Source: a virus. Taken from it: a stretch of DNA of 20,085 bases. Positions 1,616 to 18,352 of this stretch are shown piece after piece. Where the stretch lies: the IMG/VR virus record IMGVR_UViG_3300021356_000380, positions 1 to 20,085 of that record. The stretch is one strand, 5' to 3'. Every line of letters starts with the position of its first letter. Positions within the stretch are counted from its first letter, which is position 1. The notes under the pieces are model-generated. The model ran no database searches and had not been told where the DNA came from. It saw nothing but the letters and a program-made list of their open reading frames with translations. The position numbers and the translations under genes were made by a program.

Positions 1616-1991
1616 TGCGCTTTTGCTGCTCTTGGCATCACCAGCCGCAGCGGTCCCTGTGGTCCCAAATTTTTCGCAGGGAGTTGTCTCGACCCACACA
1701 GAGACCAAGACGATTGTGAAAGAGAACATCGTCTCGGAATCGCACCGCACCGGCTGGGAGTACACGGTCAGCGGGAGTGGAGTTGAGCCAAGCAGCGGCA
1801 CTGTGAGCCCTGCTGTTAGCGGCACAGGCTTAGACCTTTCCAGTCGCAGCAGCTGGGTGCAATCAACACCTGGCGCTGCTTTTCAGTTTGCGGAGACCTA
1901 TCAAGGCCCTGGCCTGATTGAAAAAGTGACTATTGACAGAGAAACCATCATTGAAAGCGTGACCGACTCCACAAGCACATTCAGCCAATGA
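1596..1991 (+). CDS. Secreted protein 2, probable paralogue of the preceding gene
   Basis: 131 residues from a GTG start at 1596, chosen because it gives a complete signal peptide (MNCKAASALLLLLASPAAA, then VPVVP). An AGGTGA just upstream could act as a weak ribosome site. The mature protein has a Thr/Glu-rich start (THTETKTIVKENIVSES), a central YTVSGSGVE block and a FQFAETYQGPG block matching the preceding gene in order and spacing type, and an acidic, Ser/Thr-rich C-terminus. Its start lies inside the end of the preceding gene and its TGA overlaps the next ATG, so the operon is tightly coupled. No enzyme motif is visible. An exported structural or envelope protein is the best reading; the function is unknown. 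Confidence 0.75.
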   Translation: MNCKAASALLLLLASPAAAVPVVPNFSQGVVSTHTETKTIVKENIVSESHRTGWEYTVSGSGVEPSSGTVSPAVSGTGLDLSSRSSWVQSTPGAAFQFAETYQGPGLIEKVTIDRETIIESVTDSTSTFSQ

Positions 1992-2773
1992 GAGCGACAG
2001 CAACTGCGCTGCTACTCGGCTTGATTTACGCCACGCCTGCGGCTGCACAGGTGAGCGCAACTGCATCGCCTGTGAGCAATAGCAGTGGCTCAGTGGTCAA
2101 TCAGGCTGTGCAGGTCACTCCAGGTCAATATCAAAAGTTCAGCTTTGGGTCTGGGATTCAGTGCGACGGAGCAACGCTAAACATTTCCCCCTTCCTGTCC
2201 GGTGTTCACTCTTTCGGGAGACCTAACAATGAGTATTACGAGGAGCCGGTTTACGACAACAGCGACAACTACGGCCTCAAAGATCCAGAAACAGGCTTAG
2301 ACGGACCAGACGGAATACCCGACAATCCGGGCCGAGTCCTGTTCATGAAGCCAATGAGGACGGGCTATCGCAGCAACTACAGCAACAATTTTGGGATCAC
2401 CGCGACCATCTCATTGCCACTGGATCGTCGCGCGATTAACCAGTGCCTGAAAGCAGCAGAAAAGCAAGTTGCGCTGTACGAACAGAGCCTTGCCGATAAG
2501 AGACTCAACTACGAGATGGGCCGCCTTAAAGCTTGTGCGCAGGCGATCCGGGAAGGTTATGGCTGGTCTGACAACAGCCCGTTTAAAGCAATCTGTGCTG
2601 ATGTAGTTCTCAAGCCGATCCCTGTAGAGGGTCACACCCACGCCATCATTTACCCACAGCCCGACGTAAAGCCATTAGTGCGCGATTCCGATCTCTCTGC
2701 GCCAGGATCCGCTCCCGTAAAGATACCGGTTTTGCCTTTTTCAAAAGAAGCTTCTTCACAACCTTCTTCGTGA
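1988..2773 (+). CDS. Secreted protein 3 with central coiled-coil-like segment
   Basis: A 261-residue protein with a Sec signal peptide (MRATATALLLGLIYATPAAA, cleavage before QVSAT). The N-terminal mature part contains NSSGSVVNQAVQVTPGQYQ and a Cys at SGIQCDGATLN. The middle has an acidic, calcium-site-like stretch (DPETGLDGPDGIPDNPG). Residues of about 148-190 form a predicted helical or coiled-coil region (INQCLKAAEKQVALYEQSL). A Pro/Ser-rich tail follows HTHAIIYPQP. Four Cys in the mature part could form periplasmic disulphides. I recall similar proteins from cyanomyoviruses annotated only as hypothetical or structural. Its last 128 bases overlap, tail to tail, a minus-strand gene that also looks real. 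Other options are a spanin-like periplasmic lysis protein or a virion component; neither is shown. Confidence 0.75.
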   Translation: MRATATALLLGLIYATPAAAQVSATASPVSNSSGSVVNQAVQVTPGQYQKFSFGSGIQCDGATLNISPFLSGVHSFGRPNNEYYEEPVYDNSDNYGLKDPETGLDGPDGIPDNPGRVLFMKPMRTGYRSNYSNNFGITATISLPLDRRAINQCLKAAEKQVALYEQSLADKRLNYEMGRLKACAQAIREGYGWSDNSPFKAICADVVLKPIPVEGHTHAIIYPQPDVKPLVRDSDLSAPGSAPVKIPVLPFSKEASSQPSS

Positions 2774-3413
2774 TTGGCTTGGCCAGCTTTTGCAGCACTG
2801 ACGCAATCGGCTTGCTCAAGATGGCCGCAGTGGTGGCAAACGCGGCAGTTACCGCAACTGATACGGTCGGGCCAACATCAGGCACATAGTTGTTCACTAC
2901 CTGGCCAACAGGCACAGGGTCCCAAAGCTTTACGCACTTGCCGTCTTGCAGCTCATAACCCGCCAGGACCTCTGTCCCTAATTTGTTAAACGATCCGATT
3001 TCTTTCGAGCCAAAGGGTGGGCATGGCGCGCTTGGTGGCAAGTTGGAAGGGCCGGGGTCGGCTCTCGGTACACTTGGAGAAGGGACTGCGGCCGGGGTTT
3101 TTGGCTCCGGCTTTTTTGTGTCTGCTTGTGGTGGCTGCACCCATGTGAAGTCACGGGGCCTGTAGTCCGGCGCGTCATACACAGGAACCGCCCCATCGCA
3201 CAGCGTGACGTTGCCGCGTGGGTCATCCTCAAACGTTTGAACACCGCTGCCCTTGGCTATACGCGCACGCACGCATCCAGGCATTTCAATCACTGGATAC
3301 TTTGCAGACGTAACCGGTGGAGCCGTTGGTAAAACAGGGGGCGGGATTGGCTGGCCCACAGAGATGTCAGGCACGCCGATTCTTCGTACACCTATCTCAC
3401 GAATTTGCGGCAT
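2646..3413 (-). CDS. Pro-rich protein with C-terminal hydrophobic and highly basic segment
   Basis: 255 residues from ATG 3413. The N-terminus (MPQIREIGVRRIGVPDISVG) and the following PPPVLPTAPPV and EMPGCVRARI blocks resemble, from memory, a protein conserved in cyanophages and annotated as hypothetical or structural. The middle is a long Pro-rich linker (about residues 90-130). Next come a compact segment (GSFNKLGTEVLAGYELQDGK), a hydrophobic stretch (SVAVTAAFATTAAILS) and a very basic tail (KKVVKKLLLKKAKP, then RERILAQRDRNRALMALRR) that could bind nucleic acid or acidic membranes. It overlaps the convergent secreted protein by 128 bases, and its start codon overlaps the divergent start at 3412. 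Codon-level reading is convincing; the function is unknown. Confidence 0.75.
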   Translation of the reverse strand: MPQIREIGVRRIGVPDISVGQPIPPPVLPTAPPVTSAKYPVIEMPGCVRARIAKGSGVQTFEDDPRGNVTLCDGAVPVYDAPDYRPRDFTWVQPPQADTKKPEPKTPAAVPSPSVPRADPGPSNLPPSAPCPPFGSKEIGSFNKLGTEVLAGYELQDGKCVKLWDPVPVGQVVNNYVPDVGPTVSVAVTAAFATTAAILSKPIASVLQKLAKPITKKVVKKLLLKKAKPVSLRERILAQRDRNRALMALRRAVGK

Positions 3414-14701: not shown

Positions 14702-15048
14702 GCTTCAAACACCTGCACAAAGGTTGTGGTCAGCTGAACCCGACCCTTAGTAGTCATCGTTTTGCTCCACGCAGAGCAACGCACTTTGATGCTGCTGCTT
14801 TCGCTCGGTGGCGTAAAAGTAAACTTCTCAGTGCCACCACGGGCATCTAAAAACGCCTCAACGGTGTCCGACTCTGACTCCGACAGGTTGTACGTAAGCG
14901 TGAACGACTTCGGGTTTTGGTTAATGCCCAGGCTGCCTACCTGTTCATAACCGCTGCCGAATCGTGCCCGTCGGACAAGCGGCTGGCTGCCCTTTGTTGT
15001 GCCGTAGGACGGCTGCAGGTTGACGGATGAATCCCAGCTAGCGGTCAT
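14698..15048 (-). CDS. M: Minor tail protein gpM
   Basis: 116 residues, similar in size to lambda gpM (109). The family signature is visible: an N-terminal W and Y-rich strand, RRARFGSGYEQVGSLGINQN, LTYNLSESESDTVEAFLDAR, then FTFTPPSESSSIKVRCSAWS and a closing VQLTTTFVQVFEA. gpM joins the tape measure to the tail tip. Start and stop overlap both neighbours by four bases (ATGA). Confidence 0.9.
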   Translation of the reverse strand: MTASWDSSVNLQPSYGTTKGSQPLVRRARFGSGYEQVGSLGINQNPKSFTLTYNLSESESDTVEAFLDARGGTEKFTFTPPSESSSIKVRCSAWSKTMTTKGRVQLTTTFVQVFEA

Positions 15049-16955
15049 CGGCTCAGAAGTCCTCCAGGTCGTTGCTGCTTAATTAACTCAGTCTGGACTG
15101 CAGCGCCAATCAAAGCGCCGAGCTGCCGTGACTGGCCCTCGTTGCCCTCGACGGTAGTGCCGCTGGCATCAACGTTCACAACGACGTTAGAGGCCATGGC
15201 AGCGCCGCCTCCACCTAGCTGATTGTTAGGGATGATCGTGCCAGCTCTATCGGGGACAAACAACTCGGGGCCGCGTTCACCGACGATCGAGGGGCGACCA
15301 ACAGGTGGACGACCACCGTCTGCGAAACCTAGGAAGCCGGTGAAACTAAAGCCCTTCAGCGCGTTAAGCAACTTCTGCTGGAGGATTAGCTTTGCCATCG
15401 ACTTGATGACACCCAGCAGGGAATCGCCTAGCGACTTAGTTCCTTCGATTGCTGCCGTGAGAGCGTCAACAATTCCAGTTCGGAAAGCATTATCAAGCTC
15501 TTCAGCTTTTTGCTTTTGCTCGTCTAGCTTTTTCTTCAGAGCTTCGTCTTGCTTTAGGCGAAGTTCATTGGCTTTAGTAATAGCTTCAGTGGCATCCTGC
15601 TGCTCAAACAGCGCAGTAGTTGCTTCAAGCTCTGCTTTGATTTGATCCTCTGTCAGGCCGCGTTTGTTTTCAAGAATGTCAGCAATTTGGATCTGGCGCT
15701 CGAACTGTTTCCGCTCCTCGTCTGTTAGCGCAGATGCGAGCAAAGTTGCCTGCTCTAATGAGCGCACACGATCTGCCGATGCTTGTGCAATTTGTGCGGC
15801 TTCCTCAGCAGGATCTTTGCCGCCAGTACCAGCTCTGCCCTGCAACAACTCAGGGATCGTCATGTCGGGTGTCTCGGGAGTTCTCAGGAAATCACTGTTC
15901 CTTAGCTCCTCAATCCTTGCTTGTCTTCGTTCAAAGAACTCTCGACGCTCTGCGACTGTGCGACCACCTGCAAATCGTTTCGCTGAACCCTTGCCGCTTA
16001 TTCCAAGCTCTTCGTCTACTTTTCTCGCAATCTCTGCTTCCCTAAACAGATTGTTGATCTGGTTCGTAATAGTTGTGAGGAAGTTAATAATGCCCTTAAA
16101 AATAGGTGACAGCACCTTGCCGATGTTCTGACCGAACCGCTGCAAAGCATCTTGCAACGTTGAAAGTTTGCCAAACAAAGTATCGGACTGGGCGACCGCA
16201 CCGTTTGCATATTTACCGCCTGCCTCTGTCAGCCTGATCAGAGCAACCTCTGCTGCTTTGGCGCTGATCTGTCCTTTCTCCAGTGCTTTGCTGAACTCAG
16301 TGCCGGTCAGGCCATACATCTTCCTTAGCTCGTCTTGGAGCGCGACGCCTCGCTCCTGCAGCTGCAGCAGCTCCTCACCTTGTAGTCGGCCCTTCGCTTG
16401 AATCTGGCCGAACGCCGTTGCGATGCCGCTCAGGTCGGCACCAGTCGCACCAGCAACATCAGCGAGTCGCTTGGTGATGTCAACGACCTGCTCTGTCTCG
16501 AAGCCGAAAGCCTTCAAGCGTTTCGACGTTTCGATCAGCTCTGTGCTTGTGAACGGCGTCACCGCACCGAACGCCTGCAGCTCAGAGATAATCCCCTTGG
16601 CTGTTTCCAGCGACCCGGTAAGAACTTGCAGGCTCTTAGTTTGCCTCTCTAGCTCGCCCGCCTTGCCGAATGAGAACTTAAGCAACGCTGCCGCACCCGC
16701 AGCCCCTGCAGCAAGTAAAGCCGCCTTGCCTAGTTTTCCAAATTTGCCTGCTGCTTGCCCTGCCTTTCTCGCTAAATCAGCCAGGCCCTTTTTGCCTTTG
16801 CGGCCCATATCGGCAAGCTTGTCGCCTGTATCTTTCGCAGCCCTCTTCAGGCTGTTTATTGCAACCTCTGCTTTTTTGCTAGCTGCCGCAACCGCGCGAA
16901 GTGGATTGATCGCCTTTACGGCGTTGACAATCAGATCGACGGATGACTGTGCCAC
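15045..16955 (-). CDS. H: Tail tape measure protein
   Basis: 636 residues from GTG 16955, with AGG six bases upstream. The basic, helical N-terminus (residues 1-65) leads to a short hydrophobic segment (LLAAGAAGAAALLKF). The tape measure N-terminal domain follows at about residues 95-280 (RQTKSLQVLTGSLETAKGII, PFTSTELIETSKRLKAFGFE, FGQIQAKGRLQGEELLQLQE). Then come a hydrophobic helix near 285-305, long charged coiled coils (about 310-520) and the typical C-terminus FADGGRPPVGRPSIVGERGP. It sets tail length: at roughly 1.5 angstrom per residue a tail of about 95 nm would be expected, which is short for a siphovirus. Confidence 0.93.
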   Translation of the reverse strand: MAQSSVDLIVNAVKAINPLRAVAAASKKAEVAINSLKRAAKDTGDKLADMGRKGKKGLADLARKAGQAAGKFGKLGKAALLAAGAAGAAALLKFSFGKAGELERQTKSLQVLTGSLETAKGIISELQAFGAVTPFTSTELIETSKRLKAFGFETEQVVDITKRLADVAGATGADLSGIATAFGQIQAKGRLQGEELLQLQERGVALQDELRKMYGLTGTEFSKALEKGQISAKAAEVALIRLTEAGGKYANGAVAQSDTLFGKLSTLQDALQRFGQNIGKVLSPIFKGIINFLTTITNQINNLFREAEIARKVDEELGISGKGSAKRFAGGRTVAERREFFERRQARIEELRNSDFLRTPETPDMTIPELLQGRAGTGGKDPAEEAAQIAQASADRVRSLEQATLLASALTDEERKQFERQIQIADILENKRGLTEDQIKAELEATTALFEQQDATEAITKANELRLKQDEALKKKLDEQKQKAEELDNAFRTGIVDALTAAIEGTKSLGDSLLGVIKSMAKLILQQKLLNALKGFSFTGFLGFADGGRPPVGRPSIVGERGPELFVPDRAGTIIPNNQLGGGGAAMASNVVVNVDASGTTVEGNEGQSRQLGALIGAAVQTELIKQQRPGGLLSR

Positions 16956-16978: not shown

Positions 16979-17161
16979 CTACCGCCGCCCTTGCTTTGCG
17001 CGCTGCATAGCTTTTTCTTCCATCTCGGACTTCAGCTCATGGAAGGCCGCAAAATGCACCAGCTCGTCATCTGTCAGCTCAGTGCGAAGCCTGCTGACCG
17101 TCATCCCTAGTTCGCAGGCCAGGTGGAACTCATAAAAGACCCACTTGTCCTGCTTTAGTCG
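16979..17161 (-). CDS. T: gpT-type frameshift extension of the tail chaperone
   Basis: Reading the minus strand from the slippery site in the -1 frame gives 60 more codons ending in TAG at 16981-16979. The peptide (RLKQDKWVFYEFHLACELGM, then LRTELTDDELVHFAAFHELK and EMEEKAMQRAKQG) has the pattern of lambda T domains: an aromatic-rich first helix, a Leu-rich motif ending in F-x-x-(F/Y)-x-E-L-K, and a charged tail. There is no good start codon at its beginning, so it should be made only as a G-T fusion of about 177 residues. In lambda the T part recruits the tail tube protein while G binds the tape measure. It ends 23 bases before the tape measure start. Confidence 0.85.
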   Translation of the reverse strand, partial: RLKQDKWVFYEFHLACELGMTVSRLRTELTDDELVHFAAFHELKSEMEEKAMQRAKQGRR

Positions 17162-17511
17162 TTTTTTGCGTCTTCGAGGCTGGTCTCTTCACCGAGACCA
17201 AAGACGAACAGCTCGACTTCATTTAGGACAGACTCGGGCAGCTCGCGTTGCAGTTTCGCTGCATCAGCCGGAGCAAACGCCTTGGTGCCGTCTTCCAGCT
17301 CGGCAAGCTGGCAAAGCATGTTGGTGCTGATGTCTAGGGCTTCATCAGAACCAGCAAGATTCTGCGCCCGTTTGCGATCAGCACGGGTGATCGGCTTGAA
17401 GTAGAGATCAATGATCTTTTCCCCGTCGCCGTTCTTTAGCTCAAACTTGCGACGCTGGTTGAGATCAAACGCCCCAACCAGCAGATCAACCGTTCTTTGA
17501 GTCGCAGGCAT
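17155..17511 (-). CDS. G: Tail assembly chaperone gpG-like (zero-frame product)
   Basis: 118 residues from ATG 17511, whose first base overlaps the TGA of the tail tube gene (TGATG); a TTG one codon earlier is less likely. The protein begins MPATQRTVDLLVGAF and includes IIDLYFKPITRADRKRAQNL and a helical acidic C-terminus (ESVLNEVELFVFGLGEETSL), as expected for gpG-type chaperones that coat the tape measure. In the last codons, GCA AAA AAC GAC TAA contains the heptamer A AAA AAC in the correct frame, followed two codons later by the stop. Position between tube and tape measure genes is diagnostic. Confidence 0.9.
   Translation of the reverse strand: MPATQRTVDLLVGAFDLNQRRKFELKNGDGEKIIDLYFKPITRADRKRAQNLAGSDEALDISTNMLCQLAELEDGTKAFAPADAAKLQRELPESVLNEVELFVFGLGEETSLEDAKND
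17161..17167 (-). promoter_or_regulatory. Programmed -1 frameshift site A AAA AAC
   Basis: On the minus strand, A(17167) AAA(17166-17164) AAC(17163-17161) matches X-XXY-YYZ with the zero frame reading AAA AAC, and the zero-frame stop is at 17157-17155. A -1 slip fuses gpG to the 60-residue T frame. In lambda-like phages the G:GT ratio is set by such a site. Confidence 0.88.
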
Positions 17512-17933
17512 CAAATACCAGAGGTGATAGTACCGTTTGCAGTGAAGCTGATAGTTACAACTTCAATCTCGCCAACGGTAGCACCGAACTCTGCGTTGGT
17601 AACTAGAGCCGCAAACGACAACTTTTTGTCGCCGCTTTCATCTAGATACAGCTCAAAGTTAGCGTTAGCTGGATCCTCAGTAGTCAACGCCTCGTTGAAC
17701 AAGTCGAGCTTGTCGCCTGCACTTGGGGCGTCATAAAGCACCTCGCAGGAGCCAGTGCCGCTAACCAGTCCACCGACGTAAGCGCGGAAGGTGTCGCCGT
17801 GGTCGGTGACTTCCAGCTGCTCTTTGTCGATTGACATTGACCAAGACCGCACAGCAGCGATCTCGCCAAGTGCTGCACCTGCTGCGTCCTTGTCGAACTT
17901 AATGGTGCCCTGTTGTCCTCGGTAAAAAGCCAT
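17511..17933 (-). CDS. Major tail tube protein, copy 2
   Basis: 140 residues starting MAFYRGQQGTIKFDKD. It is clearly paralogous to the upstream gene (MAFYRGEEGSVKFDD), about half identical by eye along the whole length: SWSMSIDKEQLEV against SWSLTLDKEVLET, GGLVSGTGSCEVLYD against GGIISGNGSVEVIYT, and ATVGEIEVVTISF against ATVGEIEIITVNF. It has the beta-sandwich composition and C-terminal NGTIT ending seen in tube proteins of this group. It starts two bases after the stop of copy 1 and precedes gpG. This copy or its paralogue should be the main tube subunit; which one is not evident. Confidence 0.88.
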   Translation of the reverse strand: MAFYRGQQGTIKFDKDAAGAALGEIAAVRSWSMSIDKEQLEVTDHGDTFRAYVGGLVSGTGSCEVLYDAPSAGDKLDLFNEALTTEDPANANFELYLDESGDKKLSFAALVTNAEFGATVGEIEVVTISFTANGTITSGI

Positions 17934-17935
17934 GA

Positions 17936-18352
17936 TCAGATAGCGGTGGTGATGGTGCCGTTGGTCACGAAGTTGACCGTGATGATCTCGATTTCACCCA
18001 CCGTGGCGGAAAGCTCAGCCGATGTCACCACGCCATCGAAGCTGATCTTTTTCGCGCCGCTGGTATCGAGGAACAACTCAAACAGCGCAGTGCCTTCGTC
18101 AGTCGCGGTGTTGATGTGATCGATAAATGCTGCCGTCTCGTCAGAGGACGAAGCGGTGTAGATCACTTCGACGCTGCCGTTGCCGCTGATGATGCCACCG
18201 ACGTTTCCTGCGTAGGTGTCACCCATCACGGTGGTTTCCAGCACCTCTTTGTCCAGTGTCAGGGACCAGGACCGGGTGCTAGTGATTGCAGAAGCGGAAG
18301 AGCCAGCGTCGTCGAATTTGACGCTTCCCTCCTCACCGCGATAAAAGGCCAT
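17936..18352 (-). CDS. Major tail tube protein, copy 1
   Basis: 138 residues, a tail tube protein paralogue of the next gene (compare the identical MAFYRG start and the ATVGEIE and NGTIT blocks near the end). It is located immediately after the tail terminator gene, in the place of lambda V. Differences are concentrated in the exposed loops (MGDTYAGNV against HGDTFRAYV, SSSDETAAFIDHINTA against SAGDKLDLFNEALTTE), consistent with a shared core fold and changed surface or partner contacts. It is separated from its neighbours by only two bases on each side. Confidence 0.88.
   Translation of the reverse strand: MAFYRGEEGSVKFDDAGSSASAITSTRSWSLTLDKEVLETTVMGDTYAGNVGGIISGNGSVEVIYTASSSDETAAFIDHINTATDEGTALFELFLDTSGAKKISFDGVVTSAELSATVGEIEIITVNFVTNGTITTAI

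Follow-up and report, generated by a model that had tools for sequence, protein, structure and literature searches.

A lambda-type G/GT tail assembly chaperone locus with a very probable programmed −1 frameshift in a probable marine cyanophage

The DNA analysed here, referred to below as the window, is a whole IMG/VR contig of 20,085 bp. It very probably carries a lambda-type G/GT tail assembly chaperone locus, in which a programmed −1 frameshift would give rise to two products, G and GT. That reading had been put forward in a preliminary description of the DNA, and it is supported by the phase of the slip site and its conservation among relatives, by −1-frame selection on T, by a conserved hairpin, by gene order and by the chaperone fold predicted for G. 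The minus strand of the window reads as a siphophage tail module, comprising head–tail connectors, a tail terminator, two tandem tail tube proteins, G, T, the tape measure protein and tip proteins. G thus follows the major tail protein gene and precedes the gene for the tape measure protein, the order being tail tube, G, T, tape measure. The features of the locus are as follows.

17936–18352, minus strand: first copy of the tail tube protein, sharing 51% identity with the second
17511–17933, minus strand: second copy of the tail tube protein, matching phrog_10528 (major tail protein) at E=4e-22
17155–17511, minus strand: G, tail assembly chaperone, the zero-frame product, 118 aa from the ATG at 17511 (phrog_20784, E=3.5e-39)
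17161–17167, minus strand: slippery heptamer A AAA AAC, in −1 phase and kept in relatives of the same clade (clade A)
17155–17157, minus strand: G stop codon TAA, one codon past the heptamer, TAA or TGA in relatives
17154–17160, minus strand: spacer GACTAAA, 7 nt, from the heptamer to hairpin H1
17114–17153, minus strand: hairpin H1, presumed frameshift stimulator, outer stem GCAGG/CCUGC, MFE −17.6 kcal/mol
16979–17167, minus strand: T, C-terminal part of the putative GT fusion, read in the −1 frame, with 62 codons from the slip onward and a TAG
17102–17104, minus strand: ATG inside T, at its codon 21, present without exception in clade A (102/102 and 148/148)
17058–17094, minus strand: covarying hairpin H2, lying about 66 nt downstream of the heptamer, with 12 of its 15 consensus pairs forming in the window
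15045–16955, minus strand: tape measure protein (PF20155 TMP_3, E=1.3e-22)

The two tail tube proteins are tandem paralogues. An in-frame TTG (17514) lies just ahead of the ATG of G. Among isolates, the closest are Synechococcus phage S-H1 and the Prochlorococcus phages MED4-184, MED4-117 and P-HS2, and the hosts of these phages bear out the earlier suggestion of a probable cyanophage. The window phage is marine, with a probably cyanobacterial host.

The 3′ end of G reads GAC GCA AAA AAC GAC TAA. It is apparent that A AAA AAC (17167–17161, minus strand) stands in exactly the phase needed for a −1 slip, as had been claimed. Among the 18 gene ends in the window, an in-phase heptamer of the form X XXY YYZ was found at that of G alone, and an Rfam search around the slip site gave no match. 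The −1 frame is open from 17188 to 16979, and T ends a short way before the tape measure gene. An open frame had been described correctly, whereas its given length of 60 codons had not: 62 codons are counted from the slip site, 58 of them beyond the G stop. In itself, a −1 frame that stays open beyond a stop is nothing unusual. Composition alone puts the probability of 58 such codons at about 0.12, and most of the neighbouring genes sit in the −1 frame here, so that open −1 frames beyond stops are common. It is the comparative evidence that marks the T frame as more than a chance occurrence, since T is kept together with the heptamer in every clade-A junction surveyed.

For that survey, IMG/VR was scanned with G and T, which yielded hundreds of relatives. 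The G/T junctions were found with tblastn, using G and T as queries and without reference to the slip site, and distinct junctions were counted. In clade A, to which the window belongs, T lies in the −1 frame in 175/175 distinct junctions, with A AAA AAC as the site in 171 of them and A AAA AAA in the other 4. The comparison of the heptamer across relatives that the preliminary description had proposed therefore finds A AAA AA(C/A) throughout the clade, and the lack of conservation of the T frame, named there as grounds for rejecting the frameshift, was not observed. The G stop alternates between TAA and TGA in clade A, and an in-frame fusion of G and T was found in 0 of the 327 G/T junctions. 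At the slip site, GCA, AAA and AAC make up three of the only four codon columns without synonymous change among 66 conserved degenerate columns of G, a set that had been chosen by the site, so that the 175-junction survey is the unbiased count. In G, GCA accounts for 24% of Ala codons and AAA for 37% of Lys codons.

Nucleotide diversity in the T region, by −1 codon position, was 0.165/0.111/0.381, which is a coding pattern; in the stretch between the G stop and T codon 21 it was 0.160/0.138/0.249. From the junction onward, right after the stop, codon-position variability tracks the −1 frame, including the part that precedes the internal ATG. Because of this switch, the sequences indicate translation of T in the −1 frame and selection on it at the protein level. 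A viral protein in BFVD, D6PII1 (179 residues), matches T at 52% and is of a length compatible with a GT fusion, which might reflect a homopolymer sequencing error.

The same data bear on the way in which T is expressed. It had been claimed that T has no start codon of its own. This holds in that ATG, GTG and TTG are absent between the slip site and T codon 21 in the window, and in that the sister clades lack the ATG; it does not hold in that codon 21 is an ATG throughout clade A. That invariance, together with the S-H1 record, in which a separate ORF of 47 codons is annotated from this ATG, favours a reading of T as a separate small protein (41 aa in the window) made with no frameshift at all. 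Such an origin is highly improbable, however, given that the T codons ahead of the ATG are themselves under −1-frame protein selection and that the aligned codon is Lys in nearly all members of sister clades B and C, in which T is nevertheless retained. The AGGG that abuts the ATG is too near to it for a good Shine–Dalgarno sequence, and the invariance of the heptamer and the hairpin would be left unexplained. Reinitiation at the G-rich AGGA/GGGGG past the G stop was also considered, and was rejected on the grounds that the T frame offers no suitably spaced start codon. Were the frame to be changed not by the ribosome but by RNA polymerase slipping on the A run, the 6–7 A found in clade A would provide a place for it; a run of six A is, however, short for slippage during transcription, and clade B, which has only AAAGG, still has T in the −1 frame. 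The hairpin 7 nt downstream likewise suits ribosomal frameshifting, and slippage by the polymerase can be given very little credence.

Hairpin H1 begins 7 nt past the heptamer, a canonical spacing, within the 5–9 nt range of structures that act in bacterial −1 programmed frameshifting of the dnaX/IS-like kind. Nine consensus pairs are retained in 147–148 of 148 sequences. The codons that form the stem (T codons 4–17) show near-zero synonymous change, with Gln as CAG in 148/148, Cys as TGC in 148/148 and Ala as GCC in 134/134, GCC being the rarest Ala codon in the remainder of T. Pair 20/47 shifts between CG, TG and TA and is the sole H1 pair with a two-sided change. As the outer stem hardly varies, the case for H1 is drawn from this synonymous constraint and from that one pair. 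The folding energy gave a z of about −3.1 to −3.4 against a synonymous-codon null, and a plain dinucleotide shuffle of the window sequence alone gave only −1.9. The second hairpin, H2, at +73 to +109, has 89% of cells paired versus 30–43% when the structure is slid along the alignment, with two-sided changes at 5 pairs. It lies inside T in clade A and repeats the GCAGG of H1.

From its position and constraint, H1 is presumed to stimulate frameshifting. The frameshift might be real and H1 nonetheless be no stimulator, its synonymous constraint arising from another function of the RNA or DNA, such as mRNA processing. H2, which is constrained as well yet is too distant to make contact with a ribosome positioned on the slip site, is consistent with that proposal, as is the description of lambda-type G-T shifts as seeming to lack stimulators (PMC5009743). 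On the other hand, H1 starts exactly 7 nt past the heptamer, and in clade B an unrelated pairing begins at the same position, which makes a function of H1 apart from frameshifting unlikely.

Relatives that keep the T frame without the heptamer, which the preliminary description had held to speak against the frameshift, do exist. In clade B, the clade of P-HS2 and MED4-184 (70 junctions), T is in the −1 frame and the consensus is NNA AAG GAA TCY TAA RGG GGG A; the heptamer is absent and only an invariant A_AAG tetramer is found. As A_AAG is a known −1 shift motif (PMC5009743), this clade is taken to have changed its site, not to have lost recoding. From the invariant TAA RGG GGG A a hairpin of different pairing can be formed at the same spacing, with weaker statistics (mean p 0.06). 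In the more distant, also marine, AG-345-A17 clade, T lies in the +1 frame in 79/79 distinct junctions. The +1 frame opens exactly at the AAA of TTR AAA AGC, within an invariant AAA AG(C/T/A), and for this reason the slip is assigned as +1 on AAA_A, the only option with full re-pairing. An SD-like RRGGRGG is present upstream in 79/79, and between it and the slip site lies a mini-hairpin, GGC-NNNN-GCC, in which 2 sequences carry A-U in place of a G-C pair through a compensatory double change. The designation AG-345 refers to an extracellular sort gate (PMC6122165). In the relatives of S-2L, C CCA AAG is found in −1 phase 52 nt upstream of the G stop in 4/4, and the two frames overlap further there. 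These sites form a series, A AAA AAC with H1, A_AAG, C CCA AAG and +1 AAA_A(GC), and they suggest, with the balance about even, that in one homologous chaperone pair of marine phages one means of recoding has given way to another on several occasions, with both products kept. If so, the series would be a natural one for how phages rewire a frameshift, and it would include dedicated RNA stimulators for G-T shifts, which are not described in the literature examined.

G belongs to phrog_20784, a family without an assigned function, and gave no match in Pfam. The AlphaFold model of G (pLDDT 78) has as its best PDB match the HK97 tail assembly chaperone gp13 (2OB9; E=1.9e-3, prob 1.00, TM 0.51–0.59), although sequence identity to it is just 8–11%, and distant members of the family match phrog_344, 'tail assembly chaperone' (E=1.4e-5). 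By its predicted fold, then, G is a tail assembly chaperone, as the zero-frame gene had been called. A PDB sequence search with the G and T profiles found nothing relevant. The AF2 model of T consists of three helices (pLDDT 87), and T matches phrog_337, 'tail protein', in 12/12 members tested. In hhalign the T profile shows a weak alignment (P=9e-4, probability 22%) to lambda gpT, over the 40 N-terminal residues of the latter, which, together with the helices, agrees with the helical, T-like character described earlier. TIGR01715 (phage_lam_T) was matched at E=0.082 in one T member other than that of the window; the window T had no match in Pfam or NCBIfam. A scan of genome contigs for prophage relatives of T found none.

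A model covering slippage on the ribosome, its frequency, stimulation by H1 and the roles of G and GT may be proposed. Most ribosomes would terminate at the G stop. A minority, paused by H1 just downstream, would move back by one base at A AAA AAC, with the P-site tRNA-Lys and the A-site tRNA-Asn re-pairing in the −1 frame, and would read 62 more codons to give GT. By analogy with lambda, G would coat the tape measure protein and the T part would recruit tail tube subunits. In lambda the GT fusion is a minor product, at about 1:30. As in lambda, the chaperone pair is encoded between the tail tube and tape measure genes, a short chaperone ends in a slippery site, and T is predicted to be helical and lies in the −1 frame. 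The window differs in its heptamer, A AAA AAC, in its conserved downstream hairpin, in a T of 62 codons versus 144 annotated in lambda, and in a G with no detectable sequence similarity to gpG, no relation between the two being found by hhalign. A point against the frameshift is that in Escherichia coli A AAA AAC is far less shift-prone than A AAA AAG (PMC5009743); its behaviour in cyanobacteria may differ. The g-t frameshift of the haloarchaeal virus HCTV-2, whose host is unrelated, uses the same heptamer, A_AAA_AAC (PMC5009743).

Closer at hand, S-H1 (MK105819) is 79% identical in G and 73% in T and has the heptamer and spacing of the window, but its G and T were deposited as two hypothetical proteins. 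P-HS2, MED4-184 and MED4-117 have homologous G (60%) and T (51%), the latter again in the −1 frame, but with A_AAG in place of the heptamer and another hairpin pairing, and the T frame is unannotated in MED4-184. The records of S-H1 and MED4-184 thus leave the frameshift of this marine cyanophage group unannotated. G-T frameshifting as such was already known; what is added here is a conserved hairpin and an apparent repeated change in the type of recoding among relatives. If the hairpins act as proposed, G-T frameshifting in this group would be tuned by conserved RNA structure. The presence of different sites and directions in sister clades makes the evolution of programmed frameshifting testable on one protein pair, in cultured phages of Synechococcus and Prochlorococcus.

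Elsewhere in the window, the ORFs at 1988–2773 (plus strand) and 2646–3413 (minus strand) overlap tail to tail by 128 bases on opposite strands, and both have strong PHROG matches (phrog_848, E=2e-70, and phrog_570, E=8e-52, respectively). A Peptidase_C39-like protein is encoded at the contig edge (3–623, minus strand).
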